Positions 9,068-36,996 of a DNA stretch of 37,170 nucleotides are shown in pieces (the stretch's first letter is position 1; each line of letters begins with the position of its first letter). Origin of the DNA: a virus; IMG/VR virus record IMGVR_UViG_3300009137_000103, positions 1-37,170 of that record; one strand, 5' to 3'. Both the position numbers and the translations under genes were made by a program. Under the pieces are notes generated by a model, which was not told the origin of the DNA, ran no database searches, and saw only the letters and a list, made by a program, of their open reading frames with translations.

Positions 9068-9074
9068 AGTTCGG

Positions 9075-15586: not shown

Positions 15587-15682
15587 CCCCGACACCGATG
15601 TCGGGGAGTTGGAGCGCGGCTCTGTGAGCCGCAGCGTTGTGGCTCGGTGGCGATGATGCTGCGGGTCACAGACCCGCGCTCC
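15587..15682. repeat. R3 and R4 repeats between late genes
   Basis: An R3 palindrome (15587-15606) is followed by a full R4 element (15611-15682). R4 starts GGAGCGCGGCTCTGTGAGCC and ends with its near complement GGGTCACAGACCCGCGCTCC. Confidence 0.85.
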
Positions 15683-15691
15683 GGAGCAAAT

Positions 15692-16140: not shown

Positions 16141-16208
16141 GGAGCGCGGCTCTGTGAGCCGCAGCATGTCGGCGAGCGCGCTTGCTGCGGGTCACAGACC
16201 CGCGCTCC
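16141..16208. repeat. R4 palindromic repeat
   Basis: A full R4 element of 68 bp, nearly the same as the copy at 15611. It lies in the spacer between the gp36-like gene and the exported 158-aa gene. Confidence 0.85.
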
Positions 16209-16217
16209 GTGAGTTCT

Positions 16218-19288: not shown

Positions 19289-20899
19289 TCATATCAGAGT
19301 TGTTTTCTTGCGCAGTTCATCGACCACAGCGCCGGTCATGGCGTCGGCCATCATTTCCTGGAGCGCTTGCGCGTACTCGGGCCGGGCGCGGACCTGGTCG
19401 GCCAAATCCGGCACGTCTTTGAGGAGTTGCTGCAGCTCGCGTTGGAGTTGGGCGGGATCATCGATCTGCAGCAGGGTATCCAGACGCTGCAGGATGGGTT
19501 GCAGACTGGTTGCGCGGGCGCGGAAAACTTTTTGGAGCGCGGGTCTGCTCACAGAGCCGCGCTCCGCTCGGTTGCGTAGTCCCAGTGTTGCAGGCGAGTC
19601 GCCTGCAACGGCGGGCGGGTCGCCCGCGCTACCCAAGAGGATCTGCGGCTTCAGCTCGAGGGTGTAACCGGTCTTCTCGGATAATTCCGCAGCATCGCGT
19701 TGATAGCCGGCCTGGGCAAGCGTGAGGGTGTTGTCCGCTTCCTCTTTCACGTCCGCTTCGTCGCGCGGACGCAGATGGAAGTACGCCAGCGCCGGTTCGC
19801 CCGAATGCTCGCGCGCCAGGATATCGGCGTCGAATTGGGCCTGGAACACTTCGTTGATCTCGGCGGCTTCGCCTTCGGCGATGTCGTCGAACGTGTCTTC
19901 GTGCGCGCCGCCGGCCAATGTGCCGCTGCCGCTCTCAGTGAGCATCGTCAGCTTGCCGCCTGTGCCGGCCAGCACCAGCTCTTCGTCCTGGTAGCGGATA
20001 TGGTCGCGGAACGGATTGATGCCGCGCGGTTGATCGTTGGGCTTGTAATCGCTGCCGGCCGGCAACGCGCCGCTGCCGCCGCTGGCGATACGGGAAGCGG
20101 CATCTTCGTAATCTTTTTCTTTGCCTTGCTGGATGTTGCCGGGCATCACGACCACGCCGCTGGGGATCCCATAGATCTCGATGAAGGCGTCCCAGTCTTT
20201 TTGGGAGAGGTTCTTGCGCAGGTAACAGAACAGTCCGATCTCGTCGATGGGCATGTCGCACTCGCGAATGATGAAGCCGGCCGGGTCGATGACCTGGCCT
20301 TTAAGCACGTCGAATGTGACCTGGCGACTGTCCTTGTTGTACGCCCATGGCCCGTAAAGGCCGTCGCGGACCCAGGTCCATTGATCGAGCGGCTCGAGGT
20401 GCATCACGTCGCCGTCCGGGCTGCGCTGCTTTTGGAGGTGGCTGAAGCCGCGGAACTCGGCCAGGGCAAGAAACGCGATCGCGCCACGGAGGTTGTCCAG
20501 GGCATCGTAGGCGGCGCGGAGGGTTTGTTTCTGGGCATCGGCCTGGGCCTGGGTGGCGCCGGGGGGCAGCTCGGCCACGGTCTTGATGTCCCAATCCAGC
20601 TTTTGCAGGGCGGCCCGGCGCCGGATGATCAGGGCGCGGTGGGTCGCGTTGCGTTTCTCGACAAGGCGGAAAAGCCATTGGAGATCAGCGAATTCACCGC
20701 GTTGGCCGGCTTCCAGGAGGCTCACCGAGCGGGCGACGGTCAGGCCGCGGAGCGGGTTGTACCATTCGCGCCACCGGTTTGTTCCCCGGACCAGCCGCTC
20801 CATATCCACTGCGGTGCCGGGCAAAGCGGCCTGGACGCGGTTCAGGAGCGGCCAGGCGGCGCTGACCAGGGCGGTGCGGAGGTTGCGGAAAAGGGTCAT
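19289..20899 (-). CDS. Portal protein, DUF935 (Mu gp29) type
   Basis: A 536-aa protein. The order NRWREWYNPLRGLT (residue 40), RNATHRALIIRRRAAL (residue 84), LDWDIK and GVVVMPGNIQQG (residue 250) followed by INPFRDHIRYQDEELVLAGTGG is characteristic of DUF935 portal proteins, which form the dodecameric DNA gateway and dock terminase. It is coupled by ATGA to the zinc-ribbon gene upstream. R5 and R4 repeats (19534-19635) are inserted in frame near residue 425-455, in the C-terminal region after the core, adding about 35 residues. Confidence 0.85.
   Translation of the reverse strand: MTLFRNLRTALVSAAWPLLNRVQAALPGTAVDMERLVRGTNRWREWYNPLRGLTVARSVSLLEAGQRGEFADLQWLFRLVEKRNATHRALIIRRRAALQKLDWDIKTVAELPPGATQAQADAQKQTLRAAYDALDNLRGAIAFLALAEFRGFSHLQKQRSPDGDVMHLEPLDQWTWVRDGLYGPWAYNKDSRQVTFDVLKGQVIDPAGFIIRECDMPIDEIGLFCYLRKNLSQKDWDAFIEIYGIPSGVVVMPGNIQQGKEKDYEDAASRIASGGSGALPAGSDYKPNDQPRGINPFRDHIRYQDEELVLAGTGGKLTMLTESGSGTLAGGAHEDTFDDIAEGEAAEINEVFQAQFDADILAREHSGEPALAYFHLRPRDEADVKEEADNTLTLAQAGYQRDAAELSEKTGYTLELKPQILLGSAGDPPAVAGDSPATLGLRNRAERGSVSRPALQKVFRARATSLQPILQRLDTLLQIDDPAQLQRELQQLLKDVPDLADQVRARPEYAQALQEMMADAMTGAVVDELRKKTTLI
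19534..19635. repeat. R4 and R5 repeats inserted in frame in portal gene
   Basis: An R4 half element (19534-19565) and an R5 element (19588-19635) lie side by side. On the minus strand they encode GSAGDPPAVAGDSPATL and RAERGSVSRPAL, with no stop and no frameshift. Confidence 0.85.
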
Positions 20900-21336
20900 A
20901 AAGGTGCTTCCGGCATCTTGCCGGAAGAAGAATTGAGTGCAGCCCCGACATCCGATGTCGGGGCAGCACCTTGGGGGTGCGGGCTCAAGGGCGGGGGGCT
21001 ATGGTCATCCGTCCTTAGCGTAAGAATGCCTGTAAAGGCCGTGCCGCGCGCAAATTTAGCCCTTCCCGTCGAGCCTGTGACCAAGGAATCGGATATGGGC
21101 GGGTGGTCCTTTTTCCAGCGCCTGGTCCGGCACAAGTTCCCGCAAAATGCGGCTCCCGGAGTTTTTGGAATGAATCGATGGCCGCATTCGACGCAGTTCC
21201 TTGGGCCTGGGCGGAACTGGCGCGGCCGTCTCAGGGTCCATGCTTGGACCCGGCAATCATCCGAGCAAAATCGTTTTGTCGCGCGCTTCGGCGTGAAGGC
21301 CGTTCCGCAGACCGGGCATGGGATCGGTTGCTTCAT
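20896..21336 (-). CDS. Double zinc-ribbon protein between TerL and portal
   Basis: A 146-aa protein. Two Cys4 units are clear: CPVCGTAF...RFCSDDC (residues 7-28) and CVECGHRF...AAFCGNLC (residues 48-69), each CxxC-x12-CxxxC, typical of small zinc-binding proteins. The C-terminal 60 residues are Pro/Ser-rich and run through an R3 repeat in frame (APTSDVGAAL). It overlaps TerL (ATGA) and portal (ATGA), so it belongs to the packaging operon and may bind DNA or aid terminase. Function not known. Confidence 0.65.
   Translation of the reverse strand: MKQPIPCPVCGTAFTPKRATKRFCSDDCRVQAWTLRRPRQFRPGPRNCVECGHRFIPKTPGAAFCGNLCRTRRWKKDHPPISDSLVTGSTGRAKFARGTAFTGILTLRTDDHSPPPLSPHPQGAAPTSDVGAALNSSSGKMPEAPL
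20943..20963. repeat. R3 palindrome inside zinc-ribbon gene
   Basis: A 21-bp R3 palindrome with the CAGCACCTTG tail, inserted in frame in the C-terminal part of the zinc-ribbon gene. Confidence 0.85.
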
Positions 21337-22829
21337 CCCGCCAAACTCCTTTCACGGCGCTCGGCGAGCACCTGGTTGCGATGGCTGTCCGGCACGATGA
21401 TCCGGCCGATCGCCGACGGGAAACTGCCGGCATGAACGCATAGCGCCAGGCCGTTGGTCCGATCGGCGTGGCCATCCTCGGATTGCGGCGCGCGATAGGT
21501 GACGCTGCCCGCCGCGGTAACGACCCGCTGCATGCTGTGCAGGTCTTCACGCACCAGGCGGTTGATCGGGATCCGAAGCTTGCGGCTCTCGAAGGCCATC
21601 TTGAGTTTGGGGAAAATCTGCAGCTTGAATTGGTTGGTCATCACGCACAGCTCGATCTTGCCGAACAGGTCCGCATCCGGTTTCCATTCGCCGAATTCCT
21701 TGACCAGGTAATCGCCCATACCGATGCCCGGCCCGGTATAATCGAGCGCAACACGCCGCGCTTTGCGGATGCGCGGGCGGAGGTTGTCGATCTGGTCCGG
21801 GGTGCTCATGTTTTGCAGCTCGAGCACTTCGCGTGTGGCCTGCACGTCGCCGATCATTTCGGCAGCCCAGGAGACGGTGAGGTTTTTCTTGCGGCCGTAA
21901 TCGATGCCCAGGTCAACCGGGAAAGGCGTGGTCGATTCCCAAAATTCGGCTGGCGCGGCCGTGTGCGCCTCCGGACTTTCGCACAGGGCAATCAGGTCAT
22001 AGGGCAACAGAACCGAAGCGGCATCGAGGAATTGACATTCGAATTCCTGCGCCCAGCCGTCGGGATCATTGAGCGCTTCCTTGAGCTCCTCGATATTGAC
22101 GGGCAAGCCTTCCTGCACGGCGCGATAAATATCCACGTAATGACAGCTCCATTTGGCTTTGGGCTGTTGATAGTTCTTGCTCCAGAGTTCATGGAACTTG
22201 TTGCCGATGCCGTTCGGGGTCGAGATGAGCCGGACCCGTTTGACCCCGCCGCGGAGCGGGTTGGTGATGCTGGGCAGGATCGCGCGCCAGGTGGCATCCG
22301 GATTTTCGAAGAAGGCAAATTCGGTGAGCAAAATGTTAGCGGAGAAACCGCGCACGGTGTCGGGCTTGCCGGGCACGGCAATGACGCGCGAACCGTGCGG
22401 GAAAATGATGGTGCCGGATTTGAGCAGGGCCTCGGCGCTCTTGGTTTCGCGTTCTTCGAGCACATCGGCAATGGTCAGTTTGTAGGCTTCAGCCCAGTCT
22501 TTCCATTTGTTGAGTGACTCGAGGGCCTGGCGTTCGGAGGGGGCGCCGATGAGCCAATCGACTTTGTTGTTGTCCAGCTCGTGCTGGACGCAATCGCGGA
22601 TGCCTTCTTCGCCGCTGGAGAAGTCTTTGCCGACCTGGCGGCTCATGAGGCCGATCTTCCAGCGGGCATCGTCATCGGCCCAGGAGCGCTGGTAGGGCAG
22701 AAGCAGACCCCGACATCCGATGATGTCGGGGCGCTCCGGAGCGGGACCGGCGGGGCCGGCATTGGGGCTGTGCGCATCAGCCTTTCTGCCGGTCCCACCG
22801 TCAGTGTCGCTTGTTGAAAATGTGTCCAT
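21333..22829 (-). CDS. Terminase large subunit (TerL), Mu gp28-like
   Basis: A 498-aa protein. The ATG overlaps the last base of the small subunit stop (TAATG). The ATPase core begins near LLPYQRSWADDD (residue 43), with a Walker A-like SRQVGKD (residues 63-69), a Walker B-like ILLTEFAFF, and a coupling segment RVRLISTPNG. The nuclease part has VDLGIDYGRKKN and a late Asp-rich block. It packages DNA by headful-type translocation and cleavage. The N-terminal 42 residues are low complexity and contain an R3 repeat in frame. Confidence 0.85.
   Translation of the reverse strand: MDTFSTSDTDGGTGRKADAHSPNAGPAGPAPERPDIIGCRGLLLPYQRSWADDDARWKIGLMSRQVGKDFSSGEEGIRDCVQHELDNNKVDWLIGAPSERQALESLNKWKDWAEAYKLTIADVLEERETKSAEALLKSGTIIFPHGSRVIAVPGKPDTVRGFSANILLTEFAFFENPDATWRAILPSITNPLRGGVKRVRLISTPNGIGNKFHELWSKNYQQPKAKWSCHYVDIYRAVQEGLPVNIEELKEALNDPDGWAQEFECQFLDAASVLLPYDLIALCESPEAHTAAPAEFWESTTPFPVDLGIDYGRKKNLTVSWAAEMIGDVQATREVLELQNMSTPDQIDNLRPRIRKARRVALDYTGPGIGMGDYLVKEFGEWKPDADLFGKIELCVMTNQFKLQIFPKLKMAFESRKLRIPINRLVREDLHSMQRVVTAAGSVTYRAPQSEDGHADRTNGLALCVHAGSFPSAIGRIIVPDSHRNQVLAERRERSLAG
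22708..22731. repeat. R3 palindrome inside TerL N-terminus
   Basis: A 24-bp R3 copy with an extra GAT in the centre. It encodes RPDIIGCRG just before the conserved ATPase core of TerL. Confidence 0.85.
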
Positions 22830-23374
22830 TAGCTCATGCCGAAGATGGCGCGCAGGCGATGTTGTTTCTCTTCGGGCGAAAGTGCCTTGTCGCTGATGGT
22901 CACCTCGGCTTCCTCGGCCTGCCTGGCTTTCTGTTCCAGTATCGCCACACGGCGTTCTTCCAGGTGCCGGTCGGCGCGTTGCTCCTGCACTTTCAGATAG
23001 GTCATCACCGGGGTCATGGCTTTGGTGGCGACCTTGAGCAGTTCCGGGTTGGCTGTGGCCTGCAGGCTCAGTTGCATGATCAAGACCCGATGCAGTTTGA
23101 TCAGCGTCTCCACTTCCGGCGGCGCGTCCTTGGCGAATTGTTTCTCGACCCGTTTCACGGCCTGAGCGCCCGTAGCGATCTTCTCCAGGACGCGGTCCTG
23201 AAGGCGTTGTTGCTGGCGTTTCTCCCACCAGTCCGACAGCAGCGAGGGCGAGACTGAGAGCGAGTAAAGATTCTGCAAGCGGGCGCGGGCATCGTCCAGG
23301 GTGAGGTTGTCGGCGAACCAGCGCTCCAGCTCCGCGCTGTACGGATCGAGCTTGGATTTTTTCTGTTTGCGCAT
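22829..23374 (-). CDS. Terminase small subunit, DUF3486 (Mu gp27)-like
   Basis: A 181-aa highly charged helical protein starting MRKQKKSKLDPYSAELERWF. The helix-turn-helix-like start (LTLDDARARLQNLYSLSVSPSLLSDWW) and long coiled coil follow the DUF3486 layout, where Mu gp27 recognises DNA for packaging. It lies directly before TerL with a one-base overlap. An R1 repeat separates it from the gene upstream. Confidence 0.75.
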   Translation of the reverse strand: MRKQKKSKLDPYSAELERWFADNLTLDDARARLQNLYSLSVSPSLLSDWWEKRQQQRLQDRVLEKIATGAQAVKRVEKQFAKDAPPEVETLIKLHRVLIMQLSLQATANPELLKVATKAMTPVMTYLKVQEQRADRHLEERRVAILEQKARQAEEAEVTISDKALSPEEKQHRLRAIFGMS

Positions 23375-23383
23375 TCACTGAGG

Positions 23384-23455
23384 CTTTACGCGAAGGGTCG
23401 CGAATGGCCGCGGATTTCCCAGATTCGCGTTCCTTAGCGTTAATTCGCGTAAAAA
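23384..23455. repeat. R1 palindromic repeat, copy e
   Basis: A full-length R1 element of about 72 bp, in the spacer between terminase small subunit and the 85-aa gene. Confidence 0.85.
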
Positions 23456-23457
23456 GT

Positions 23458-23715
23458 TCACAGTTGCTTGGCTTTGTGCTGGCCCTTGGGCGTCAGGGTC
23501 CAGCTCTGGTCTTTGGTCATTGAATCTTCGGTGCCGTGGATCCATCCGTTCAGCGATTGCTCGCGGATCGCCGCGTTGATGTCCCCTTCGGGCGGCGGAC
23601 TCGGTTGCATGGCGGCGCGCACGGCCTGGAGCAACGCTGCGTCCGGCAGCGGCACGCCATCGGCCGCTTCCAACGCGCGCAGGATGAATTGTTTGATCTC
23701 GGATTTGCGGCTCAT
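23458..23715 (-). CDS. Small protein with winged-helix-like layout, 85 aa
   Basis: An 85-aa protein: MSRKSEIKQFILRALEAADG then a second helix (DAALLQAVRAAM) and a C-terminal beta hairpin (DQSWTLTPKGQHKA) like a winged-helix wing. It lies between the receiver gene and terminase small subunit, where Mu has gp26. It may bind DNA. It is bounded by two R1 repeats. No family is certain. Confidence 0.55.
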   Translation of the reverse strand: MSRKSEIKQFILRALEAADGVPLPDAALLQAVRAAMQPSPPPEGDINAAIREQSLNGWIHGTEDSMTKDQSWTLTPKGQHKAKQL

Positions 23716-23722
23716 GCGGGGG

Positions 23723-23795
23723 CTTTACGCGAATTATCGCGAATTTCCGCGACCGGTCCTAATTGGTCTTCATTCGCGTGAATTCGCATAAAAAA
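23723..23795. repeat. R1 palindromic repeat, copy f
   Basis: A slightly diverged R1 element (end TTCGCATAAA instead of TTCGCGTAAA) between the 85-aa gene and the receiver gene. Confidence 0.8.
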
Positions 23796-23810
23796 GTCCG
23801 GAGTGAAAGT

Positions 23811-24263
23811 TCATGGGGTGTGATGGTTTGAGCGGCTCATTTGGGCGGTGTCATGGGCGATCCGGGCGGCTTGCTTCAGGTTCAGCAGACTTTGCTTGTG
23901 CAATACTGCCCGGCTGATGGCGCCGAACATTTGTTCGCCATCCCGATCGTCGCGGCCTTTGACCAGGTACCCGGAGGCGCCTTCAAGGATATGCTGGGCC
24001 ACGGCGCCGGGTCCGTCCCGTCCGGTGATGATCACGATCGAGGCCGCGCGCGTGATGGTGGAAAAGGTCTTGAGTGTCTCGCTCCACTTCGAGTCCGGCA
24101 AAGATAGATCCAGCAGGATGCACCAGTAACTTTTGCTGAGGGCTTCGTTGATCCCTTCGGCGAGCGTGCCGACTGCGTCCATGATACAGAACGGCGCCAG
24201 GCGCTCCTGCAATGCCTCGCGGTAAAGCGGGTCGTCTTCGATCAGTAAAACGCGTTCTCTCAT
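23811..24263 (-). CDS. Stand-alone response-regulator receiver protein
   Basis: A 150-aa single receiver domain. It has the acidic pair in LLIEDDPLY, phospho-acceptor D52 in LLDLSLPDS, a Thr in IITGRDG and the Lys in GYLVKGRD. About 30 residues of helical tail with no output domain follow. The start MRERVLLIED overlaps the upstream gene by ATGA, so it belongs to the late unit. It may take phosphate from the hybrid kinase at 4187-5686 or from host kinases. Such single-domain receivers act by binding partners. The fit is very good for the family and unexpected for a phage. Confidence 0.9.
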   Translation of the reverse strand: MRERVLLIEDDPLYREALQERLAPFCIMDAVGTLAEGINEALSKSYWCILLDLSLPDSKWSETLKTFSTITRAASIVIITGRDGPGAVAQHILEGASGYLVKGRDDRDGEQMFGAISRAVLHKQSLLNLKQAARIAHDTAQMSRSNHHTP

Positions 24264-24616
24264 TTGCGCCGGCTCATCTCGATGCGGGTCAAATGCACGA
24301 GCACTTCGCTGATGCGGGTATGGAGTTTCTCCGCCCGCGCCTCGGCGGCGGCATTGGTAATTTCCTTGTCGTGCGCGAGCTCGCGCCGAACCTCGACAAC
24401 CGATTCGCGCAGCTCGCCGGCCAGCCCATCGACTTCCTCGCGCACCTCCTTCCATTCGCTGCGGGTGACGTAATCGCCTTTGACCTGGTACGTGTCCCGT
24501 GGCGGCGGGTGTTCTTTGAACCGATCGAGCAGGCGCATGACCTGGTTGATGCCCATGACGACCCCGACCAGGCATCCGAGCCAGCCAGCCAATTCCAGTG
24601 GTGTGGGTGTGGGCAT
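24260..24616 (-). CDS. Membrane-anchored coiled-coil protein, Mu gp25/DUF2730-like
   Basis: A 118-aa protein with one N-terminal membrane segment (LAGWLGCLVGVVMGINQVM, residues 9-27) and then a long charged helix (residues 50-118). The layout fits DUF2730 proteins such as Mu gp25 and also resembles inner-membrane spanins. It is followed by the receiver gene with ATGA overlap. I favour the gp25-like call by position. Confidence 0.6.
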   Translation of the reverse strand: MPTPTPLELAGWLGCLVGVVMGINQVMRLLDRFKEHPPPRDTYQVKGDYVTRSEWKEVREEVDGLAGELRESVVEVRRELAHDKEITNAAAEARAEKLHTRISEVLVHLTRIEMSRRK

Positions 24617-24628
24617 TCAAACGGGTAG

Positions 24629-24921: not shown

Positions 24922-25387
24922 ATTTTGTGAGGTGCGCGGTGGCTTCAGCGAGCGCCTGGCGTATGACGCGCAGCGCGTCATTCAACGCGGTGCGGTTGTC
25001 CGGAGTCGGGCTGGCGGCATACGCCTCGCGCAGGCGCGTGGCGGCATCGGTCCATTCTTCGGCGTGGCGCCGGATGTTGTCGGCGGCTTGTCTGATCTCC
25101 GGGATCGCGGCCAGTGCTGCGCGATTGTTCCGTTCCCAGCTCACGAACACTTTGAACAGGTCGTAACCGGTGACGATGGATTGGTCCGCTTCGAACAGGA
25201 GCTTGGCTGCGGTGGGATCTGTGGTGAGCCCTTTGTCGCCGAGGTACGGGCTGGGATTGTCCGGCGTGCCTTTGCTCAACGTGCCGCAACTGGTGATGCA
25301 CAGGAGCACACTGAGGGAACAGAGGTGGAACCATCGTCGGTTAACTCCGGTTCCTCCGCTTCCTCCTGTTAAAAAAGTTGGGCTCAT
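24890..25387 (-). CDS. Late lipoprotein, outer-membrane spanin candidate
   Basis: A 165-aa protein. The N-terminus has a hydrophobic stretch LCSLSVLLCITSC ending in a lipobox (ITSC, Cys about residue 34). After a Pro/Gly linker the mature part is helical (about residues 65-165). It follows the holin-like gene with an ATGA overlap, so it could be an o-spanin or a lysis-related lipoprotein, though it is longer than most o-spanins. Its signal peptide is encoded by an R2 palindromic repeat (25300-25370). Confidence 0.6.
   Translation of the reverse strand: MSPTFLTGGSGGTGVNRRWFHLCSLSVLLCITSCGTLSKGTPDNPSPYLGDKGLTTDPTAAKLLFEADQSIVTGYDLFKVFVSWERNNRAALAAIPEIRQAADNIRRHAEEWTDAATRLREAYAASPTPDNRTALNDALRVIRQALAEATAHLTKYGPANNNPGP
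25300..25370. repeat. R2 palindromic repeat, copy c, coding a signal peptide
   Basis: An R2 element (CAGGAGCACACTGAGGGAAC ... TTCCTCCTGTTA) that lies within codons about 6-30 of the lipoprotein gene and encodes the hydrophobic core of its signal peptide. Confidence 0.75.
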
Positions 25388-25632
25388 TTTGTTTGATCGG
25401 TTGCAGGCAGTGTGGCTTGGATGGCTTCAATGTGTTCGTGCACGTGTTCCAGTGCTTTGTCGGTCTTCGTCACGCCCATGCGCAGGAAGGTGAGCCCGAG
25501 GAAACCGAACATGCCCATGATTTCTTCACTGGGGTTTTTGCCGGTGAATTGGCAGAGGGCCAGGTAACCGATCGCGGCGCCGGCGACCAGGTAGGTCTTT
25601 TTGCCGGAGAAGAATTGGAGCACTTCGTTCAT
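25384..25632 (-). CDS. Holin-like small membrane protein, 82 aa
   Basis: An 82-aa protein with two predicted membrane segments (TYLVAGAAIGYLALCQF, residues 13-29, and IMGMFGFLGLTFLRMG, residues 38-53) and a hydrophilic, His/Glu/Lys-rich tail, as in class II holins. It is the first gene of the tightly packed late unit. No endolysin gene is recognised nearby. Function inferred from topology and position. Confidence 0.6.
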   Translation of the reverse strand: MNEVLQFFSGKKTYLVAGAAIGYLALCQFTGKNPSEEIMGMFGFLGLTFLRMGVTKTDKALEHVHEHIEAIQATLPATDQTK

Positions 25633-25642
25633 GGGCAGACTT

Positions 25643-25710
25643 TTTTACGCGAATTGACGCCAATGAACGCCAATTGGGGGGGAGGTTAATTCGCGATAAT
25701 TCGCGTAAAG
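25643..25710. repeat. R1 palindromic repeat, copy h
   Basis: A diverged R1 element with the block order altered (TTTTTACGCGAATTGACGCC ... TTCGCGTAAAG), just upstream of the holin-like gene and therefore in the leader of the late unit. Confidence 0.8.
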
Positions 25711-25729
25711 CCTCGGTTTGAGAACAGCG

Positions 25730-26165: not shown

Positions 26166-26248
26166 CTGATTTGCCCTCCAACGATAGCGCGCTGAACGGT
26201 ATGCGTTTGTCGATCTCACCGGCGTTCGTCTAATCCAATGTTCGGGGC

Positions 26249-26572
26249 TTACAGGTCTCCATCGTCGAGGCTGCGCAATCCGTGTTCGGTCAGCCACGTT
26301 TTGCTCTTACGCCGCAGTTCGATTGGCAGATTGAGCGCACCCGTGATGGCTTTATGGACTGCGCCCCAAAATACTTCTGGGTCTGCTGGCATCTCTCTTT
26401 CATTCCACTTTCGGAACATTGCTCGTATCCGTTCTTCGTCCAAGGACATCAGCGCCTGATCACGTTCACGGTTAAATTCCGCGAGTTCTCGGCTGAGCCT
26501 TTCCGCTTCCGACGTTCGCCCCGAACCATGCGCTCCAGCGAACCCGGCTTCTGCGGTTTGTTTATTGTCCAT
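26249..26572 (-). CDS. Cassette 1 protein, 107 aa, unknown
   Basis: It starts MDNKQTAEAGFAGAHG inside attC site A, so its N-terminal 20 residues are coded by the recombination site. The middle is a charged helix (SRELAEFNRERDQALMSLDE) and the C-terminal part has FWGAVHKAITGALNL and KSKTWLTEHGLRSL. Its stop lies in the core of the cassette boundary at 26240. No family recognised. Confidence 0.6.
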   Translation of the reverse strand: MDNKQTAEAGFAGAHGSGRTSEAERLSRELAEFNRERDQALMSLDEERIRAMFRKWNEREMPADPEVFWGAVHKAITGALNLPIELRRKSKTWLTEHGLRSLDDGDL

Positions 26573-26628
26573 GATGTTCAGGTTTGCCCAACGTCCCGGT
26601 GGCCGGGTCGCTGAGCTTTGCGTTATGT
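26520..26628 (+). other. attC-like site A
   Basis: Left core CCCGAAC, right core GTTATGT. Left arm GCGCTCCAGCGAACCCGGC pairs with right arm GCCGGGTCGCTGAGC, with an extra A in the left arm. The left core matches the start of its own cassette (GTTCGGGGC at 26240). Confidence 0.75.
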
Positions 26629-26840
26629 GGCTCGATCTCGTAGTCATTCACACCAAAACTGTTGTCCGTGATCGCTTCGTGAGATACCCAGTAATCCCAG
26701 TTGAATCTCCTGCTGTTCCGATCACCAATGGCCCGAATGATAAGCACGTCTCCTGGCTCACAGCAGTAGCCGCCGATTCCATCCTCGGTCAGTCCATTGT
26801 GACAGGCCACTTTCGCCCTCACCTTTTGGCCCGCCCACAT
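26562..26840 (-). CDS. Cassette 2 protein, 92 aa, beta-rich
   Basis: It starts MWAGQKVRAKVACHNG within site B. It is beta-rich, with GYCCEPGDVLIIRAIG and FNWDYWVSHEAI, which suggests a small SH3-like barrel. The C-terminus (HNAKLSDPATGTLG) is encoded by site A. It overlaps the start of cassette 1 gene by 11 bases. Function unknown. Confidence 0.6.
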   Translation of the reverse strand: MWAGQKVRAKVACHNGLTEDGIGGYCCEPGDVLIIRAIGDRNSRRFNWDYWVSHEAITDNSFGVNDYEIEPHNAKLSDPATGTLGKPEHHGQ

Positions 26841-26946
26841 AACACTGCGCTGCAGGCGACGGCGGGGAGCCGGTTGGGTTAATGCCGTTGCTCTTCTGGT
26901 CGTTCATTTGTCAGTTGCCCGCCGCGCCTGAGCTTGGTCGTTCGGT
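26837..26946 (+). other. attC-like site B
   Basis: Left core ACATAAC is the exact complement of the cassette start GTTATGT at 26622, and the pairing extends to 9 bases. Arms are GCTGCAGGCGACGGCGGG and CCCGCCGCGCCTGAGC, with one extra A in the left arm. Right core GTTCGGT. This is the best site of the array. Confidence 0.8.
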
Positions 26947-27221
26947 GACTCTGGTTCTTCACACTCTTTGAGCAGAGCCACCATTTGCTCGCGAGAAACG
27001 TTTGGAGCACGACTATGGAAGTATCGCCAGAATTTCTCGGGGTCGTGCTTGTGAGCTTCGATAGGATGCGCGTTGCAGAACATTTGCCACGCGATGTCTT
27101 TGCATTGGTCTTTACTTTCGTGTCCGGTCAGAGCGATGCCCGTGAGCGGACAATTCGGTAGACCGACCGGCGAGGAGCCGGTTGGTTCCACTTGCGAAGT
27201 CAGTTGTTCGCCGTCGGTCAT
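26904..27221 (-). CDS. Cassette 3 protein, 105 aa, Cys/His-rich
   Basis: It has a Cys/His-rich centre (CPLTGIALTGHESKDQCKDI then MFCNAHP) that may bind zinc, followed by a helical part REQMVALLKECEEPE. The last residues (SPNDQAQARRATDK) are coded by site B. Function unknown. Confidence 0.6.
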   Translation of the reverse strand: MTDGEQLTSQVEPTGSSPVGLPNCPLTGIALTGHESKDQCKDIAWQMFCNAHPIEAHKHDPEKFWRYFHSRAPNVSREQMVALLKECEEPESPNDQAQARRATDK

Positions 27222-27235
27222 GTCAGCCGTTCGGG
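27145..27235 (+). other. attC-like site C, degenerate
   Basis: Right core GTTCGGG. The left core is degenerate (AGCGGAC) but 7 of 10 bases still fit the complement of its cassette start. Arms GACCGACCGGCG and CGCCGTCGGTC have one unpaired base in the left arm. Confidence 0.5.
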
Positions 27236-27492
27236 CGCTTAAGTTCTTCTGGTCGGCATCGGCGAGCGGATTCTATTAGGAGTCGCCACGGTATTTTGAT
27301 GTGCGATACGTGCCTCTTTTTCCCGTTATCATCTTTACACCAGTGGATGATTTCGATTTTGCCGCGCCGCTCATAGTACCACGTCGTATCTTTCTGCACC
27401 AGTATTCGAGTTCCGCTGGGCCGCGCCCGAACCATGCGCTGCACCGAACCGCTATTCGCTTTCCGGTTGGACTTGGAGTCAGAGGTTTTCAT
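27223..27492 (-). CDS. Cassette 4 protein, 89 aa, beta-rich
   Basis: The N-terminus (ANSGSVQRMVRARPSG) is coded by site D. The core TRILVQKDTTWYYERRG and IEIIHWCKDDNGKKRHV is beta-rich, followed by a helix WRLLIESARRCRPEEL. The C-terminus runs into site C. Possibly a small nucleic-acid-binding domain, but no family is recognised. Confidence 0.6.
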   Translation of the reverse strand: MKTSDSKSNRKANSGSVQRMVRARPSGTRILVQKDTTWYYERRGKIEIIHWCKDDNGKKRHVSHIKIPWRLLIESARRCRPEELKRPNG

Positions 27493-27530
27493 TGTCGCGG
27501 TGGGCGGTCGGTGAGCTTGGGTCGTTCGGC
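27426..27530 (+). other. attC-like site D
   Basis: Left core CCCGAAC, with CGCCCGAAC complementary to the cassette start at 27229. Arms CTGCACCGAACCG and CGGTCGGTGAGC, with an extra A in the left arm. Right core GTTCGGC. Confidence 0.75.
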
Positions 27531-27781
27531 GGCTTCGCCTTTTTGATGGTGACGACCACTCGAAAATCCGTCCCGGTGTATTCCACCCGATTGAGTTTTT
27601 GCGTTCTCAGTTCTTTCACGAGGCACGACGCTAAGAACATGGGCATTGTAAACGGCTCGTCTTCCGATGCGTCCTCAATGGCCTTTGCAATCTCGACGCG
27701 CGACATCCGCCGCCGAACAATCTCACTGGAGCCAACCGGGATAGCCGTTTCAGTAGTGCCGTTGCTCGCTGGTTCGTCCAT
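27479..27781 (-). CDS. Cassette 5 protein, 100 aa, unknown
   Basis: A mixed protein: SRVEIAKAIEDASEDEPFTM then MFLASCLVKELRTQ and a beta hairpin YTGTDFRVVVTIKKA. N-terminal PVGSSEIVRRR is coded by site E and C-terminal PPNDPSSPTAHRDN by site D. No family recognised. Confidence 0.6.
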   Translation of the reverse strand: MDEPASNGTTETAIPVGSSEIVRRRMSRVEIAKAIEDASEDEPFTMPMFLASCLVKELRTQKLNRVEYTGTDFRVVVTIKKAKPPNDPSSPTAHRDNENL

Positions 27782-27816
27782 ATCAGTTGGCCGGTGGCTC
27801 AGTTCGGGCGTTCGGC
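27712..27816 (+). other. attC-like site E
   Basis: Left core GCCGAAC; CCGCCGAAC is complementary to the cassette start at 27524. Arms ACTGGAGCCAACCGG and CCGGTGGCTCAGT, with two extra bases in the left arm. Right core GTTCGGC. Confidence 0.78.
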
Positions 27817-28103
27817 TTCGCTCGTTTTGCTTTTACGGGACCGATGCAAACGATGCTGGTTCCCTTTGCGTCTGGATACTCTTCACGGAATTTCTTGCGA
27901 GCGGCCTTCTCATCGACCGCTTCACATGTGTCGGCCAGATGATAGACCACTCGGTGCAGTTTTCGCGGGAAGCGGAAGTCATTTTTAGATTCAATGAACA
28001 TCTGCCGACCGTGCCACTGCCACACGAACAGACCGGCGCCAGCCGAACAATCCGGCTGGAGCAATCCTCGGGATTGCGGTTTAGTTGATGGTTTCTTGCT
28101 CAC
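27783..28103 (-). CDS. Cassette 6 protein, 106 aa, unknown
   Basis: It starts MSKKPSTKPQSRG. Its N-terminal DCSAGAG is coded by site F, and the C-terminal PNARTEPPAN by site E. The core has MFIESKNDFRFPRKLH and VVYHLADTCEAVDEKAARKK and ends SIVCIGPVKAKR. Mixed alpha/beta, perhaps a small nucleotide or RNA-binding fold; no family is claimed. Confidence 0.6.
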   Translation of the reverse strand: MSKKPSTKPQSRGLLQPDCSAGAGLFVWQWHGRQMFIESKNDFRFPRKLHRVVYHLADTCEAVDEKAARKKFREEYPDAKGTSIVCIGPVKAKRAKPNARTEPPAN

Positions 28104-28140
28104 AAATCTTTTGCCGGTTTGCCCGGTCGCTCATCGTCTT
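28042..28140 (+). other. attC-like site F, left half clear
   Basis: Left core GCCGAAC, with AGCCGAAC complementary over 8 bases to the cassette start at 27810. A perfect hairpin GCAATCC/GGATTGC lies inside. The right half (CCCGGTCGCTCATCG region) is degenerate and no canonical right core is visible. Confidence 0.45.
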
Positions 28141-28275
28141 GATTGTCAATATATTTTCATGTTTCTTTGCGTGTCCGCCGAACTGATCCGGAGCGTTCTG
28201 CCGACTCGGGCGTTCCGGGCATCTTCGGGATTGTTCAAGCCGGGCTTCGAGTTTTCTTATCGGGTCGGTTTTCAT
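28081..28275 (-). CDS. Cassette 7 protein, 64 aa, basic
   Basis: A short, very basic frame (MKTDPIRKLEARLEQSRRCP ... KHENILTIKTMSDRA) overlapping the start of cassette 6 gene by 23 bases. It could be a nucleic-acid-binding peptide. It is short and less certain than its neighbours. Confidence 0.4.
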   Translation of the reverse strand: MKTDPIRKLEARLEQSRRCPERPSRQNAPDQFGGHAKKHENILTIKTMSDRANRQKICEQETIN

Positions 28276-28308
28276 CGCCGTTCCGGTGCCTCAGCTTGGG
28301 CGTTCGGT
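28180..28308 (+). other. attC-like site G, right half clear
   Basis: The right part CCGGTGCCTCAGCTTGGGC followed by core GTTCGGT is clear. A matching left arm is not certain (GCCGAACTGATCCGGAGC near 28178 is a candidate). Confidence 0.4.
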
Positions 28309-28542
28309 GCTTATCAGGTTTGCTCGGCATAATTCAATGGCGAAGCGTTCGATGGCTTCAGGGTTGGGGAAGATTTTACGGAGCTTGCCCCGATGGAGCA
28401 GGTCAACGGCCCGATCGACGTTGATCGTCGGGCCGCCGGTCATCAAGCCGTACTGCCGCGCTGCATCCAGTACGAGGCAACCATGTGCAGCGTCCACTGC
28501 GTCTTGCCATTCTGCTGGTGTCTTTGGCCATCGGTGTTTCAC
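28291..28542 (-). CDS. Cassette 8 protein, 83 aa, helical
   Basis: It starts MKHRWPKTPAEWQDAVDAAHG. Helical, with LVLDAARQYGLMTGG and IFPNPEAIERFAIELCRANL. The C-terminal LISTERPS is coded by site G. No family recognised. Confidence 0.6.
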   Translation of the reverse strand: MKHRWPKTPAEWQDAVDAAHGCLVLDAARQYGLMTGGPTINVDRAVDLLHRGKLRKIFPNPEAIERFAIELCRANLISTERPS

Positions 28543-28578: not shown

Positions 28579-29301
28579 TCACTTCGCTGGCCAAAGATGC
28601 TTTTTGTCTGAGTCAGTCAGCTCGATATAGGCAAAATCGTTGTTGATGATCCGCCAGACGCCTGTGACGTGATGCTTTTTCGGATCGAAAATTTCGCCGT
28701 AATCATAGGCTTGAACGGTGCGCTGGGCGCCGAGCACGGATGCGTATTGATAGCGTCCAATCGGCACTGCGAAGACGGAGATTGAGGCGTTATCGAGCAG
28801 CGAATCCTGGTCTGGATGGCGCTTGAGCATGACGGTTTCATCCCCTGATCTGAGCAGCAAACCATCCTTGAGCACTTGTCGCACTCTGCCTGTGATCTGA
28901 GTGAAGGCTCGTGCCTCTGAAAACTCGCGTTCTCTCTGGCCTGCGATTGCCAGGCTCAGATCGTAGAGGTCCCCGTCGACGATACGCAGTGGTGTTACCG
29001 GTCCAAAATCTTCAGGCATCCGGTAAAAGGAGCTGCCTGGAATCTGGGTGACTTTGCGCGCCGCCTCTTTTATTGCCGCTTCATCTAGAGCAACTTTTTG
29101 GCGTTCGCGAATTCGGCGCCACTCCTCCGGTGTATGACTCTCTGCAGCGGCGGCCGTTGCAGCCTCTTGACGCATCTCGGCTTGTTTTTCGGTGCCTGGC
29201 CTATTCCGGTAACGCTGCGCAGTTTGAATCTGGGCCGGCGTCTGGCTCTGGGTTTGGATCGTGGCCGTGAGGATCACGGCCATCAGTATGATTGTCTTCA
29301 T
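28579..29301 (-). CDS. Secreted or lipid-free periplasmic protein, 240 aa
   Basis: The start is taken at MKTIILMAVILTATIQTQSQ, a Sec signal peptide (residues 1-20). A Gln/Arg/Ala-rich helical region follows (residues 25-75), then a beta-rich C-terminal domain (residues 95-235) with KDGLLLRSGDETVML and VTGVWRIINNDFAYIE. It lies between the cassette array and the switch, in the repressor direction, and may be the last cassette or a lysogenic conversion gene. No family recognised. Confidence 0.65.
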   Translation of the reverse strand: MKTIILMAVILTATIQTQSQTPAQIQTAQRYRNRPGTEKQAEMRQEAATAAAAESHTPEEWRRIRERQKVALDEAAIKEAARKVTQIPGSSFYRMPEDFGPVTPLRIVDGDLYDLSLAIAGQREREFSEARAFTQITGRVRQVLKDGLLLRSGDETVMLKRHPDQDSLLDNASISVFAVPIGRYQYASVLGAQRTVQAYDYGEIFDPKKHHVTGVWRIINNDFAYIELTDSDKKHLWPAK

Positions 29302-29485
29302 TCTTAGAATCAGCAGGTTTTGTGCTTTTCGCATCGTTCAAAATGTAGGCGCCAGTCTGTTGCACTGTTGCGAGGTTCGCGCATTTGTTGGCCCGTGCAT
29401 GGGGACTGTTTTCAATTCTGGGAAGGGTTGTCGCCACTGGGGAAATTGGAACTGGTAGCACAGCTTGAGGAAGAGGTGGTTCATA
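29302..29485. other. Spacer without clear gene
   Basis: About 180 bp upstream of the secreted protein gene. A 48-codon minus-strand frame (MNHLFLKLCYQFQFPQW start near 29483) is open but shows no coding pattern. I see no clear repeat or promoter. Confidence 0.4.
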
Positions 29486-30350: not shown

Positions 30351-30653
30351 TCCCAATCGGAAATCGTGAATCGTAAATCGAAAATGGAATTTGGCTGGGG
30401 TAAGGAGTCGGTGATAAACCGGTCGTGCGAGTCCTTGGCCGCGTCGCGGGCCAACTCACGGCGCAGTCAAGATTTCACTGGACTTTCTCCCAGCCCAATT
30501 CGTTTTGCCCCCCAACCGAAGCGCCCTGGCGAGCCACGTTCCGCGCGGCCTCACGCCGCGCGTAACGGGAGGCTTTACGCGAATTTCGCGAATTATCGCG
30601 AAGGGCCCCGATTCGCGTTCATTGGCGTCAATTCGCGTAAAAAATACGGCGCA
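30351..30653. repeat. Spacer with R1 copy i and a CGCGCGG hairpin
   Basis: A GC-rich hairpin CGCGCGGCC/CGCCGCGCG (30541-30562) is followed by a complete R1 element (30573-30645). The frame of the next gene runs open through all of it from 30366, but I take the start at 30654. Nothing else is evident. Confidence 0.6.
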
Positions 30654-31783: not shown

Positions 31784-32350
31784 ATGACCATTGAGCGACC
31801 AATTCAACGCACTCTGGATCTCCGCGCGGCGGATGGGTCGCGCCTGGCGTTCCTCAGGCCGATGCTCGGGATCGAGTCTGTCAAAGCGGTCCTCGATGTG
31901 AGCGAGGATGAGGTGCTCGAGTTGCTTGCTGGTGGGGCGCTGCGCTGGGGGTGGGATCTAAAGGCCGAAGGTGGCGGGGCGCGCAGTTTCGTCCGGGTCT
32001 GGAGCAGATCGGTGACGTGTTACTTGCATCCGGGACATCAGCCGGCTGAGCCGGAGGAGATCGAGGATGTGATCGGGCTGCTGCTGTCCGCGGAGCGCGG
32101 CTCCGTGAGCCGCAGCGCGGTGGCTGGCGACATTGCTGCGGGTCACAGACCCGCGCTCCAATCAGGCAGTGTCCCTGCAATAGCGCTGCAACGAATTTTC
32201 AACGCCAGTTCCGGGCATGTGCTCAATCTGATCCGGGCCGATGCCCTCGAGTTGACCAAAAGTAGTCAATGGCGACGCGGGCCGGGCGGATCGCCGGAGG
32301 TGACCAGGGCAAGCGTGGTGGAGCTGCTCAAGGCGAGGAGGATTTTATGA
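31784..32350 (+). CDS. Early protein with in-frame R4 repeat, 188 aa
   Basis: MTIERPIQRTLDLRAADGSR start. The N-terminal 90 residues are helical (VKAVLDVSEDEVLELLAGG). Residues about 104-126 (ERGSVSRSAVAG and AAGHRPAL) are encoded by an R4 repeat. The end (LTKSSQWRRGPG then TRASVVELLKARRIL) looks DNA-binding. The N-terminal block has a helix-turn-helix-like pattern. Function unknown, possibly a regulator. Confidence 0.55.
   Translation: MTIERPIQRTLDLRAADGSRLAFLRPMLGIESVKAVLDVSEDEVLELLAGGALRWGWDLKAEGGGARSFVRVWSRSVTCYLHPGHQPAEPEEIEDVIGLLLSAERGSVSRSAVAGDIAAGHRPALQSGSVPAIALQRIFNASSGHVLNLIRADALELTKSSQWRRGPGGSPEVTRASVVELLKARRIL
32092..32159. repeat. R4 palindromic repeat inside early gene
   Basis: A full R4 element of 68 bp without stop or frameshift in the 188-aa early gene. 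Confidence 0.85.
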
Positions 32351-32562: not shown

Positions 32563-33481
32563 CAAAGAGAAAGAGGAAGCCGCTGTGCACTCAGGAAAAC
32601 GTCCGCCAGACGATGACTCCGAGACCAAGCAGCATCCCCCTCAACAACTTGAACGTAGCCGTTCACCGGAGAATTGCAAGAACCGAGCCGTGATGGATGC
32701 GGTCGAGACTGTGGAGATCGCAACCCGCCTGGAGGAGATGTTTCACGACGCCCAGATGGGGCTCTGCCGCTTCATCGCCTTCGGCCTGTACGCCTACGAG
32801 GTCAAAGAGCTCAGGCTCAACCACGGCCAGTTTGGCGAGTGGATCAAGCAGCATTGTCAGCGTATCCCGTGGCGCACAGCCAATCATTATATGGCTCTGA
32901 CCAAGGGACTTCTGTATGCGTGCGGCTGCAAAATCGAGGACTATATCCAAATTCGCAAACGTTGCGAATTTGACCACGGCGGGGAGTTGATCCTCAAGGA
33001 CCCCTCTGAGCTTCCCGATTCAGCGCAGCCGCTCGCAATCAAGATGCGAGCGATGGTCGAGGGCAAGACGGCGCGCCAGTTGTTCCTGGAATTCAAGACG
33101 GCCGAGGATGTGAACGGTGAGCTGATGGTCCGCCGACCAGGCATCGGTGATGCCGCCTGGGAGAAATGGATGTGGGAATACCACCCGAACCTGATCAAGG
33201 AAGGCAAGGTGCCCGGCCGGCAGCATGTCAAGGCGGCGATCAAGAAGGAGTTCGACGCGTTCTGCCTTGAGCGGCAGCGGCGCAATCATGATCCGATCGC
33301 CGAAGCGAAAGCCAAACAGAAGTTCGCCGACGATCTCTGGGATGGCCTGGCGCAATCGCTTTGGAGGTGCCGGGATAAGTTGCACCTGTTGTCCGATCAT
33401 GTGCGGGATCAGGTGCTCGACGCGTGCGTGGAGACCAGTAATGCGATCCGGGCGATGAAGAAGGGGGGGAAACGATCATGA
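32552..33481 (+). CDS. DUF3102-like early protein, 309 aa
   Basis: The start has a good ribosome site (GAGAGGAG). After a disordered N-terminus (residues 1-50) the unit FGEWIKQHCQRIPWRTANHY (about residues 92-111) has the pattern of DUF3102, found in phage and plasmid proteins that may regulate host or replication. A charged C-terminal helix follows. It is coupled to MuA by ATGA. Confidence 0.6.
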   Translation: MNPDKEKEEAAVHSGKRPPDDDSETKQHPPQQLERSRSPENCKNRAVMDAVETVEIATRLEEMFHDAQMGLCRFIAFGLYAYEVKELRLNHGQFGEWIKQHCQRIPWRTANHYMALTKGLLYACGCKIEDYIQIRKRCEFDHGGELILKDPSELPDSAQPLAIKMRAMVEGKTARQLFLEFKTAEDVNGELMVRRPGIGDAAWEKWMWEYHPNLIKEGKVPGRQHVKAAIKKEFDAFCLERQRRNHDPIAEAKAKQKFADDLWDGLAQSLWRCRDKLHLLSDHVRDQVLDACVETSNAIRAMKKGGKRS

Positions 33482-35451
33482 GTTCCGAATTGAGTCCCGA
33501 TGTTGAAGGCGGGTGGCCTTCAACTGCGCCCGAGTCGGGCGCGCTACCCGAAGGCGCGGGCGCGCAGCCCTACGAAATTCCGCAGGCGGATGCGGCTGAG
33601 TTCGGCGCCTTGCAGGAAGGAGTGCGCGAGGAGGTGCTGTCATTGCTCGATGTGCTGAAGCAGATCGAGGCAAGGAAGAAAGTGGATGAGTCGTGCAAGT
33701 TTTTCGCCGCGGGTCTGCATCGGTCGTGGCATCGGTTGCGCGCGCAGTTTTATGCGTATCGGAAAACCCGCGATTGGCGGGTGTTGGTGAACCGTGTCCG
33801 GGCAGGCTTGTCGGAGCGGGATGAAGGATTGGCCCCGGCGTTTGTCGAGTTCTGGAAATCGCTCCTGGAGGAGAACAAGCGTAAGGATCAACCGGCCTGG
33901 CGCACGCTGATCTATATCTGGATACATCGCCGGCATCCGACCACGGGCAAGGTGCTGCGCGAGATCCCAGGGTATGCGTCCTGGCCGACGGCTGTTCCGC
34001 GCACGCGCCTGCCCAAGGGCTGGACGTACTCGAACCTGCGCAATTACGGGTTGACATTGTTCGAGCGGACCGCGGCGCGGATCGGGCGGAGCGCGGCGGC
34101 AGCGCATCGGCCGCTGGTGTTGATGACGCGGGCCGATCTGTGGGTCGGGTCGCATTACATGATCGATGACTTGTGGCACGATCATTTCGTGAATGTGCTC
34201 GATACCAAGAAGACGGGCCGGCCGCTGGAGTTCGGCGTGTTTGATCTGTATTCGGCGTGTAAATTTTCCTGGGGTATGCGGGTGCGGACTGAGAATGACG
34301 CGACGGGCCGGATGGAGGGGCTCAAGGAGGAGATGATGCGCTATTTGCTGGCCAGCGCGTTGATGGAGTACGGTTATTCGCCACGTGGCACAATCCTTGT
34401 CGTTGAGCACGGCACGGCGGCGGTGCGGGATGAGCTGGCCAAGGTGCTCTATGATTTGAGCGGGGGCAAAATTGTCGTGGCGCGCTCGGGCATCGATGGT
34501 GGCGGGGATGCGCTCGGGCTTTATGAGGGGCGTGGCAAAGGCAATTTCCGGCTCAAGGCCGCTTACGAGTCTTCACACAATCTGACGCATAATGAGTTTG
34601 GCGCGTTGCCGGCCCAGACCGGGCGTAGCGTCGAGACGCGGCCTGAAGGCACGCACGGTGTGCTCAAGCGCAATGATGCGTTGCTCAAGGCGATGATCGC
34701 CTTGGAGGCGGAGCGGCCGGAGCTGATGAAGGAGCTGCGGTTCGATGTGTGTGAGTTTGGCTGGTTCCTCGCCTTCGCGATGGCGGTCTATGAGCGGATC
34801 AATTCGCGCACCGACCATGAGCTGGAGGGGTGGGCGGCCAATATCACGATGGAGCATGGCCTGGCGCGGCGGTTGTCGCCCAGGGAAGTGTGGGCGCGCG
34901 GGCGGCGTGAGTTGATTCGGTTGTCGCCGGCCGCGATCGCGATAGTGCTCGGGCCGGATCTTGGGTTCGAACGGCGCGTGCTGGGCAATATTATCGAGGT
35001 GGCGCAAAAGGAAGTGTCGTGTGACCCGCTGTTTTTCGATGCGCATGAGTTGAAACCGGATAGGTACCGGCTGGTGCTCAATCCGTTTCGGCCGGATCGG
35101 TTGTTTGCCTTCAATGCGCGCGGCGGATTTGTGGCGGAGTGCCCGCGGCTGGATCGGGTGAGCCGGCTGGACCCGGAAGGGTTGCATCGGGCGAACGGGC
35201 GGGTGAAGCGGCTCGAGGGCGAGCTGCTCGCGCGCACGTGCGGGCGCAATGGGGCGGCGATGAAACAGCACATCGAGGATGCGCGGCATAACGCGGCATT
35301 GTTGGCCGGCGCGATTGAAGGGCCTGCGGCGCCGCTGGTCAGCAGTGAGGCCACGCTGGAGGATTTGCCTGACGTGGATTTAGGCGAGGAGTCCGGCGCG
35401 GATGCGTCGGTCGCCGATGATCAGTTGCGGGCATTGGAGGAGTTACTATGA
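33478..35451 (+). CDS. MuA-like DDE transposase
   Basis: A 657-aa protein with an ATGA overlap with the DUF3102-like gene and the MuB-like gene. The catalytic RNase-H-like domain spans about residues 215-400: the first acidic position is in YMIDDLWHDHF (D230/D231), the second in VVEHGTA (E310), the third in AAYESSH (E364). The D-to-second spacing (about 80) and the final gap of 54 fit MuA (67 and 56). In MuA the second residue is Asp; here it is Glu, so either the family uses D-E-E or my alignment is off. A beta-barrel region follows (about residues 490-560). An R5 hairpin lies in frame near residue 10-24. Confidence 0.85.
   Translation: MSSELSPDVEGGWPSTAPESGALPEGAGAQPYEIPQADAAEFGALQEGVREEVLSLLDVLKQIEARKKVDESCKFFAAGLHRSWHRLRAQFYAYRKTRDWRVLVNRVRAGLSERDEGLAPAFVEFWKSLLEENKRKDQPAWRTLIYIWIHRRHPTTGKVLREIPGYASWPTAVPRTRLPKGWTYSNLRNYGLTLFERTAARIGRSAAAAHRPLVLMTRADLWVGSHYMIDDLWHDHFVNVLDTKKTGRPLEFGVFDLYSACKFSWGMRVRTENDATGRMEGLKEEMMRYLLASALMEYGYSPRGTILVVEHGTAAVRDELAKVLYDLSGGKIVVARSGIDGGGDALGLYEGRGKGNFRLKAAYESSHNLTHNEFGALPAQTGRSVETRPEGTHGVLKRNDALLKAMIALEAERPELMKELRFDVCEFGWFLAFAMAVYERINSRTDHELEGWAANITMEHGLARRLSPREVWARGRRELIRLSPAAIAIVLGPDLGFERRVLGNIIEVAQKEVSCDPLFFDAHELKPDRYRLVLNPFRPDRLFAFNARGGFVAECPRLDRVSRLDPEGLHRANGRVKRLEGELLARTCGRNGAAMKQHIEDARHNAALLAGAIEGPAAPLVSSEATLEDLPDVDLGEESGADASVADDQLRALEELL
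33502..33550. repeat. R5-like hairpin repeat in MuA N-terminus
   Basis: GTTGAAGGC and GCCTTCAAC form a 9-bp hairpin, followed by GAGTCGGGCGCGCTACCC, the R5 end. It encodes VEGGWPSTAPESGALP in frame. Confidence 0.75.
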
Positions 35452-36802: not shown

Positions 36803-36996
36803 AAACTCCCGCCGTCAAACCCTCGGTGCGACTGCTCAGTGAAGCGGCGCGATACGAAATCCTCGCGCAGCAGGCTGCCCTTCGTGCGGTCCTCGGCGAT
36901 CGCGAGAACCGCGCGTCAGAAGAATGCCTGGCGCACGATCACATGATTCGCTCGGAGACTTACAAGGCGGCCGCGAGCCTGGTCGATCTTTTCTGA
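36799..36996 (+). CDS. Small protein, first copy of a tail-to-tail pair, 65 aa
   Basis: It starts MKTPAVKPSVRLLSEA. The core has LGDRENRASEECL and HMIRSETYKAAASLVDL. The same core is coded in the opposite strand by the second copy. No ribosome site is obvious. A family of unknown small proteins. Confidence 0.5.
   Translation: MKTPAVKPSVRLLSEAARYEILAQQAALRAVLGDRENRASEECLAHDHMIRSETYKAAASLVDLF

Follow-up and report, generated by a model that had tools for sequence, protein, structure and literature searches.

A compact attC cassette array with inverted genes and no integrase in a Mu-like phage

Integrons are bacterial devices that collect genes, resistance genes included, and their attC sites spread antibiotic-resistance genes. 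In phages, integrons have been described now and then, some of them taken over from a host. By a known rule, a cassette gene lies parallel to its attC site. Here we analyzed a linear viral record of 37,170 bases (IMG/VR record IMGVR_UViG_3300009137_000103), taken whole and called the window below, in which attC sites divide a region between positions 26240 and 28308 into short cassettes. The sites were identified with R1, a covariance model that we built from 53 attC sites adjoining bacterial integron integrases, none of them from the window. The sites and the left edge of the array are as follows.

26240-26246, + strand: R′ box GTTCGGG at the left edge of the array, which complements R″ of site A (from the sequence by the cassette-end rule explained below)
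26520-26628, + strand: attC site A (R1 48.5 bits, E 1e-9)
26837-26946, + strand: attC site B (R1 59.4 bits, E 3e-12)
27145-27235, + strand: attC site C, degenerate, with an R″ box lacking AAC (R1 29.8 bits, E 3e-5)
27425-27530, + strand: attC site D (R1 59.6 bits, E 2e-12)
27712-27816, + strand: attC site E (R1 51.9 bits, E 2e-10)
about 28023-28123, + strand: partial site F, a remnant whose best stretch has an arm score of only 11 (under the R1 threshold)
about 28177-28308, + strand: partial site G, only a right arm, seen from right-arm direct repeats, and an R′ box GTTCGGT at 28302-28308 (under the R1 threshold)

The preliminary description of this region, made from the sequence alone, had counted five good and two partial sites and had proposed a check with an attC covariance model. 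With our own model, R1, five sites were matched, all on the + strand and all within the range described earlier, while both partial sites fell under the model threshold. No further R1 match at E < 1 was found anywhere in the 37-kb window, so the repeats did not recur elsewhere in the window and the matches were confined to the array. A cruder score of arm complementarity gave four sites at or above 16.8 within 1.3 kb; shuffled sequences gave about 0.4-0.6 per 37-kb strand. Rfam had no match in the window, and neither the phage nor the plasmid collections contained a relative of the array DNA.

At sites A, B, D and E, the AAC of the R″ box (RYYYAAC) and the GTT of the R′ box (GTTRRRY) are intact. 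The variable box bases depart from the consensus (GTTCGGC, GTTATGT), as is also seen in integrase-linked bacterial sites. In the R1 alignments, the same four sites carry the unpaired extrahelical bases of the left arm that set polarity. The extra A noted earlier is present in their left arms. Both ends of the range first described, 26240 and 28308, coincide with R′ boxes (GTTCGGG at 26240 and GTTCGGT at 28302). The confirmed cassettes measure 286-318 bp, where about 290-380 bp had been given. No integron integrase had been seen, and we likewise found no match to the integron integrase model TIGR02249 in the 37-kb record. Five attC sites of one polarity within 1.3 kb, in a record with no integrase, make the region a cluster of attC sites lacking an integron integrase (CALIN). 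Of the parts of a complete integron (intI, attI and the promoter Pc), intI is absent; the record is incomplete, and attI and Pc were not systematically searched for.

The genes of the array were predicted from open reading frames (ORFs) and coding scores.

26249-26647, − strand: cassette gene, whose start is probably 26574 (MDNKQ...), within the loop of site A
26562-26840, − strand: cassette gene, 92 amino acids, with a 39% identical relative adjoining an attC site in viral record G048
26904-27221, − strand: cassette gene, 105 amino acids
27223-27492, − strand: cassette gene, 89 amino acids
27479-27781, − strand: cassette gene, 100 amino acids
27783-28103, − strand: cassette gene, 106 amino acids
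28081-28275, − strand: possible small gene (64 amino acids) at the end that has decayed
28291-28542, − strand: gene at the right edge, 83 amino acids

All of them are on the − strand and all the attC sites on the + strand, so the genes are not parallel to their sites as in a typical integron cassette. One small gene per cassette had been described correctly; its orientation opposite to the attC polarity had been overlooked. The strand assignment was supported by the phage's own codon usage, by which the − frame scored best of six for all 10 ORFs in or beside the array; in a held-out control, the same test was correct for 25 of 26 phage genes.

For comparison with other arrays, we used as a probe the exact left-arm motif AACCATGCGCTSCASCGAAC, derived from the window sites. 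It was present in 31 viral stretches and at least 117 bacterial ones, the latter mostly from genomes of Verrucomicrobiota and Planctomycetota. A TIGR02249 integrase at E ≤ 1e-40 was present in 18 of 30 motif-bearing genomes (16 above the curated cut-off) and in none of 14 controls. On several contigs, the integrase gene and the motif are no more than a few kb apart, with the gene transcribed away from the motif, which fixes the polarity of the attC site. The stems of R1 covary, with 179 double-sided changes compared with 68 in shuffles. Verrucomicrobiota DNA totalling 344 kb, made up of prophages and flanks around bacterial relatives of MuA, gave no R1 site at E ≤ 0.1. The model recognized the attC sites of the class 1 integron in Escherichia phage P1 (MH445380) and is therefore a general attC model; it was weak on Vibrio and Shewanella sites.

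When a cassette is cut out at G|TT and closed into a circle, its two ends bear matching R′ and R″ boxes, which insertion then places in two different sites. Four viral contigs whose genes are mainly parallel were set aside for this count. In the remaining viral arrays, 94 of 110 informative cassettes had perfectly matching ends, and the two boxes within one site matched in 2 of 110. Shuffles reached the observed mean end match in 0 of 2000 trials. Bacterial integrase-linked arrays behaved alike (28 perfect end matches of 32). In the window, the cassettes A to B and C to D had perfect and informative matches, and the left edge at 26240 matched site A as well, as read directly from the sequence. 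This fingerprint implies that the cassettes have moved as circular units.

These results bear on whether the repeats might be plain intergenic hairpins that resemble attC, such as repetitive extragenic palindrome (REP)-like elements, terminators or regulatory hairpins. The sites are nearly palindromic, and in antiparallel arrays gene starts and stops lie inside them, as might be expected of such hairpins. The confinement of the sites to the array within the window, the cassette-end fingerprint and the link with integron integrases are not expected of them, and translational coupling at the sites was not above chance overall. We consider this explanation extremely improbable. Translational coupling in the attC loops had looked attractive in the window but was rejected because overall it did not exceed chance.

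We then called the orientation of genes between neighboring attC sites in four sets of arrays. These calls rest on ORF prediction, and the two viral sets, obtained with two probes (the motif and an integrase search) and one attC model, consist of metagenomic records that may include misassigned contigs. Integrase-linked bacterial arrays had 55 parallel and 4 antiparallel cassettes, and other bacterial arrays had 46 and 2. The viral contigs showed the opposite: 13 parallel and 62 antiparallel cassettes in those found with the motif, 7 and 41 in those found by the integrase search. Counted per contig, 39 viral contigs were antiparallel and 5 parallel, and bacterial contigs were 0 and 33 (Fisher p = 8e-17, uncorrected for relatedness). 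Parallel exceptions among viruses include the contigs L030 and L274 and virus Rctr41k. In the last (L354, GenBank KX853513), a gene named xerD is an integron-integrase relative, and three R1 sites lie 3 kb away, parallel to the genes.

The two kinds of array also differed in spacing. The median period was 319 bp for antiparallel viral cassettes of the motif set versus 527 bp for parallel bacterial ones. In bacterial arrays, genes started and stopped at a median of 9 and 4 bases outside the attC sites; in antiparallel viral arrays, the start lay a median of 57 bases and the stop a median of 34 bases inside a site. The attC arms therefore appear to be translated in the viral arrays.

An apparent inversion could arise if polarity or coding strand had been misread, either from a palindromic site or from antisense ORFs. 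Long antisense ORFs do arise in GC-rich DNA, and for one of four window cassettes the strand call was undecided. R1, though, matches a single strand. Among viral contigs that encode an integrase, almost all attC sites are divergent from intI, as in bacteria, and the same pipeline called the bacterial arrays parallel. The contrast also held when calls were made by ORF length alone (p = 3e-22) or from codons (p = 2e-36), in agreement with the held-out frame test. We regard such an artefact as very improbable.

The array could instead be a captured piece of a bacterial chromosomal integron, an ordinary CALIN as already reported in phages. Its attC type is common to the window and to Verrucomicrobiota integrons, and captured host integrons are among the published phage integrons; contig L030, with parallel genes and long cassettes, is probably such a capture. 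Against this, bacterial arrays of this attC type had 101 parallel and 6 antiparallel cassettes and these were longer, while the window and most viral arrays were antiparallel. Neither capture of a segment nor inversion of a whole array can change the orientation of a gene relative to its site. The antiparallel genes thus separate the window array from a captured bacterial integron, and we judge capture improbable.

The rest of the record includes the following phage genes.

16751-17692, − strand: major capsid protein (phrog_1005)
19289-20899, − strand: portal protein (phrog_113)
21333-23378, − strand: terminase large subunit (phrog_2)
25384-25632, − strand: left flanking phage gene, 80% identical in a sister phage
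28579-29334, − strand: right flanking gene, with a relative in the same place in the sister phage
33478-35451, + strand: MuA-type transposase (phrog_310)
35448-36509, + strand: MuB-type transposition ATPase (phrog_296, TniB)

The terminase, portal, protease, capsid and tape-measure genes are all on the − strand, and the genes for the MuA-type transposase and MuB-type ATPase are on the + strand. The phrog_310 score of the transposase is modest (37 bits). A MuA-type DDE transposase, a MuB-type ATPase, and head and packaging genes together mark a Mu-like phage. The preliminary description had suggested that such an array would spread by transposition; the MuA- and MuB-type genes are present in the window. 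Three near-identical records, G451, G452 and G455, represent sister phages that are collinear with the window (capsid protein 94% and MuB 86% identical). The locus that the array occupies in the window contains, in these phages, a thymidylate kinase gene (27699-28433 in G452, also L367) and a 90-codon ORF, with no attC site and with relatives of the same flanking genes on either side, which suggests that the locus is a spot of exchange between the early and late regions. The flanking genes bear out the earlier statement that phage genes lie on both sides, and model matches, the recombination fingerprint and this synteny support an attC array without an integrase in a Mu-like phage.

Other Mu-like phages carry attC sites as well. 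The sister phages have a single site between MuB and a Mu Gam gene. A distant relative found by its transposase rather than by attC, G032, has 13 sites downstream of MuB, and G457 has one there. Two sites lie inside the genome of G063, which has MuB, portal and head genes. In all of these, the sites are antiparallel to the resident genes, as judged from ORF calls or the direction of MuB.

The locus downstream of MuB that bears attC in these relatives is missing from the window record. An inverted repeat of 306 bp (86% identity) lies at the right end of the record (36843-37148). The linear record and this repeat imply that the phage genome is incomplete, and with the missing locus they suggest that the record was probably cut or folded back there.

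The host is probably a member of Verrucomicrobiota, judging from the relatives of MuA and from where this attC type occurs. Such relatives of MuA were found in 31 of 388 genomes of Verrucomicrobiota, the phylum of a Pedosphaera genome. No tRNA genes were found in the 37-kb record.

Integrases of this family occur in other viral records. Those of G046 and G048 have the integron integrase model as their best match (254 and 231 bits, below its cut-off of 265), with the presumed catalytic residues and the integron-specific insertion conserved. In both records intI and attC are in the usual relation and the cassette genes alone are flipped. A quick tree of 83 integrases, with many weak forks, intersperses the integrases that have inverted arrays with bacterial ones. 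The inverted layout thus goes more with the viral setting than with a single integrase lineage, and a single origin of inverted arrays through integrase descent was not supported by the tree. About 60 viral contigs (L274-L333) encode relatives of the integron integrase, many with attC arrays directly upstream; such relatives are apparently commoner in viral contigs than the published count for phages. In a small, hand-picked set (G038, G048, G054 and G033), arrays are beside or near genes for RecT- or Erf-like annealing proteins and exonucleases.

From the identity and polarity of the sites, the orientation of the genes, the fingerprint of past recombination and the location in a phage, we are fairly confident that the region is a CALIN in a Mu-like phage, probably of Verrucomicrobiota, and represents a phage type of cassette array in which each small gene is antiparallel to its attC site. 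We infer that an integron integrase is supplied in trans by a chromosomal integron of the host or by a co-infecting phage that encodes one, such as G046 or G048. It would recombine the folded bottom strands of attC, and cassettes would thereby be gained, lost and reordered. Transcription of the cassettes would come from the phage operon, not from an integron Pc promoter. In phage integrons that bear an integrase, the genes run toward attI and intI, so new cassettes would join the downstream end of the operon. We read the region as a mobile cassette stock of what is probably a Verrucomicrobiota phage, with the integrase coming from the host or a co-infecting phage.

Several points weigh against this reading. 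Recombination is known indirectly, from the sequence fingerprint; in the window, the informative perfect end matches are limited to A to B, C to D and the left edge to A. Site C and both partial sites are decaying, so the window array may no longer be active. An integrase acting in trans on this phage and the identity of the host are what we infer, and the phage genome, a linear record ending in an inverted repeat, is incomplete.

The array might accordingly have been mobile once and now consist of fixed phage genes with attC sites as relics. The record without an integrase, site C without AAC and the two right-hand sites under the model threshold would fit this. The boxes, arms and unpaired bases kept at A, B, D and E and the perfect end matches of A to B and C to D would not, and we think it rather unlikely, though a real possibility.

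The products of the cassettes gave few clues. The cassette proteins had no Pfam match and no convincing PHROGs match, and one of them, searched against phages, had no relative. A PADLOC type III restriction profile matched at 26249-26647 (E 4e-4) over only 60 of its 973 residues and was not used. For the 92-amino-acid protein from 26562, AlphaFold gave a mean pLDDT of 43 and no usable fold. Its 39% identical relative in G048, an unrelated phage, is a sign of a shared cassette pool.

The preliminary description knew of no phage with such an array. This does not hold, as 17 attC arrays without an integrase have been reported in phages, and 5 of 6 tested phage attC sites recombined with IntI1 (Qi et al. 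2023, PMC9892861). Those arrays resemble that of the window in lacking an integrase within phage genomes; the sections of that report consulted here do not describe antiparallel genes, whereas the window array is compact and inverted and belongs to a Mu-like phage. R1 found no site in two of those phages, TJE1 and P12002L. Arrays without an integrase and recombination of phage attC sites are therefore already published. For the inverted type, no description was found in the literature searched, which included few subscription papers and no preprints.

Complete integrons in temperate phages (Vibrio phage MK672802, Shewanella phage MZ568829 and P1, MH445380) are likewise integron parts borne by phages. 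They are host or class 1 integrons with intI and with genes directed away from it as in bacteria; the window has no intI, and its genes are antiparallel to attC. Chromosomal integrons of Verrucomicrobiota and Planctomycetota, for example in Lacipirellula limnantheis, share the attC type, boxes, arms and cassette-end fingerprint, but have genes parallel to attC, mostly intergenic sites and longer cassettes. Integrons of Treponema also have an unusual orientation, with intI and the cassette genes on one strand (PMC3607928). There, intI is flipped and transcribed toward attI, whereas in phages G046 and G048 intI is in its usual place relative to attC and the cassette genes are flipped. The window phage resembles Mu and Mu-like transposable phages in its MuA-type transposase and MuB-type ATPase, and its sister phage in addition has Gam. 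To our knowledge, cassette arrays have not been described in transposable phages.

Phages may own a form of integron with a pool of short cassettes whose genes face attI. Polarity would keep the phage and bacterial pools functionally apart, a cassette of either being silent in the integron of the other. The inverted layout might have arisen or been selected repeatedly, given that viral integrases with inverted arrays are scattered in the tree, and single-stranded DNA from the RecT/Erf and exonuclease genes near some arrays could feed the folding of attC. We hold this joint reading about as readily as we doubt it. With compact inverted arrays in most viral records examined and cassettes that move as units, phages would count as users of this recombination system in their own right. 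This would offer a testable route for the exchange of small genes, perhaps for host takeover or counter-defence, between unrelated phages. The rule that a gene is parallel to its attC site becomes a testable question: why is it reversed in viruses?

Some features of the record lie apart from the array. A two-component hybrid protein (HisKA, HATPase_c, response regulator) is encoded at 4187-5800 among tail genes and has a 33% identical relative in viral record G054; a second protein with a response-regulator receiver domain is encoded at 23811-24620. The record also contains the following repeats, the first of which is dispersed between phage genes in at least six copies and is unrelated to attC.

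about 8990-9072, 10557-10640, 23380-23459, 23717-23801, 25638-25718 and 30566-30649: copies of a dispersed repeat of about 80 bp
15611-15683, 16141-16209 and 32092-32159: three copies of another dispersed repeat, about 70 bp long
14119-14340 and 14311-14532: a tandem repeat, about 190-220 bp in length (81% identity), within a large ORF

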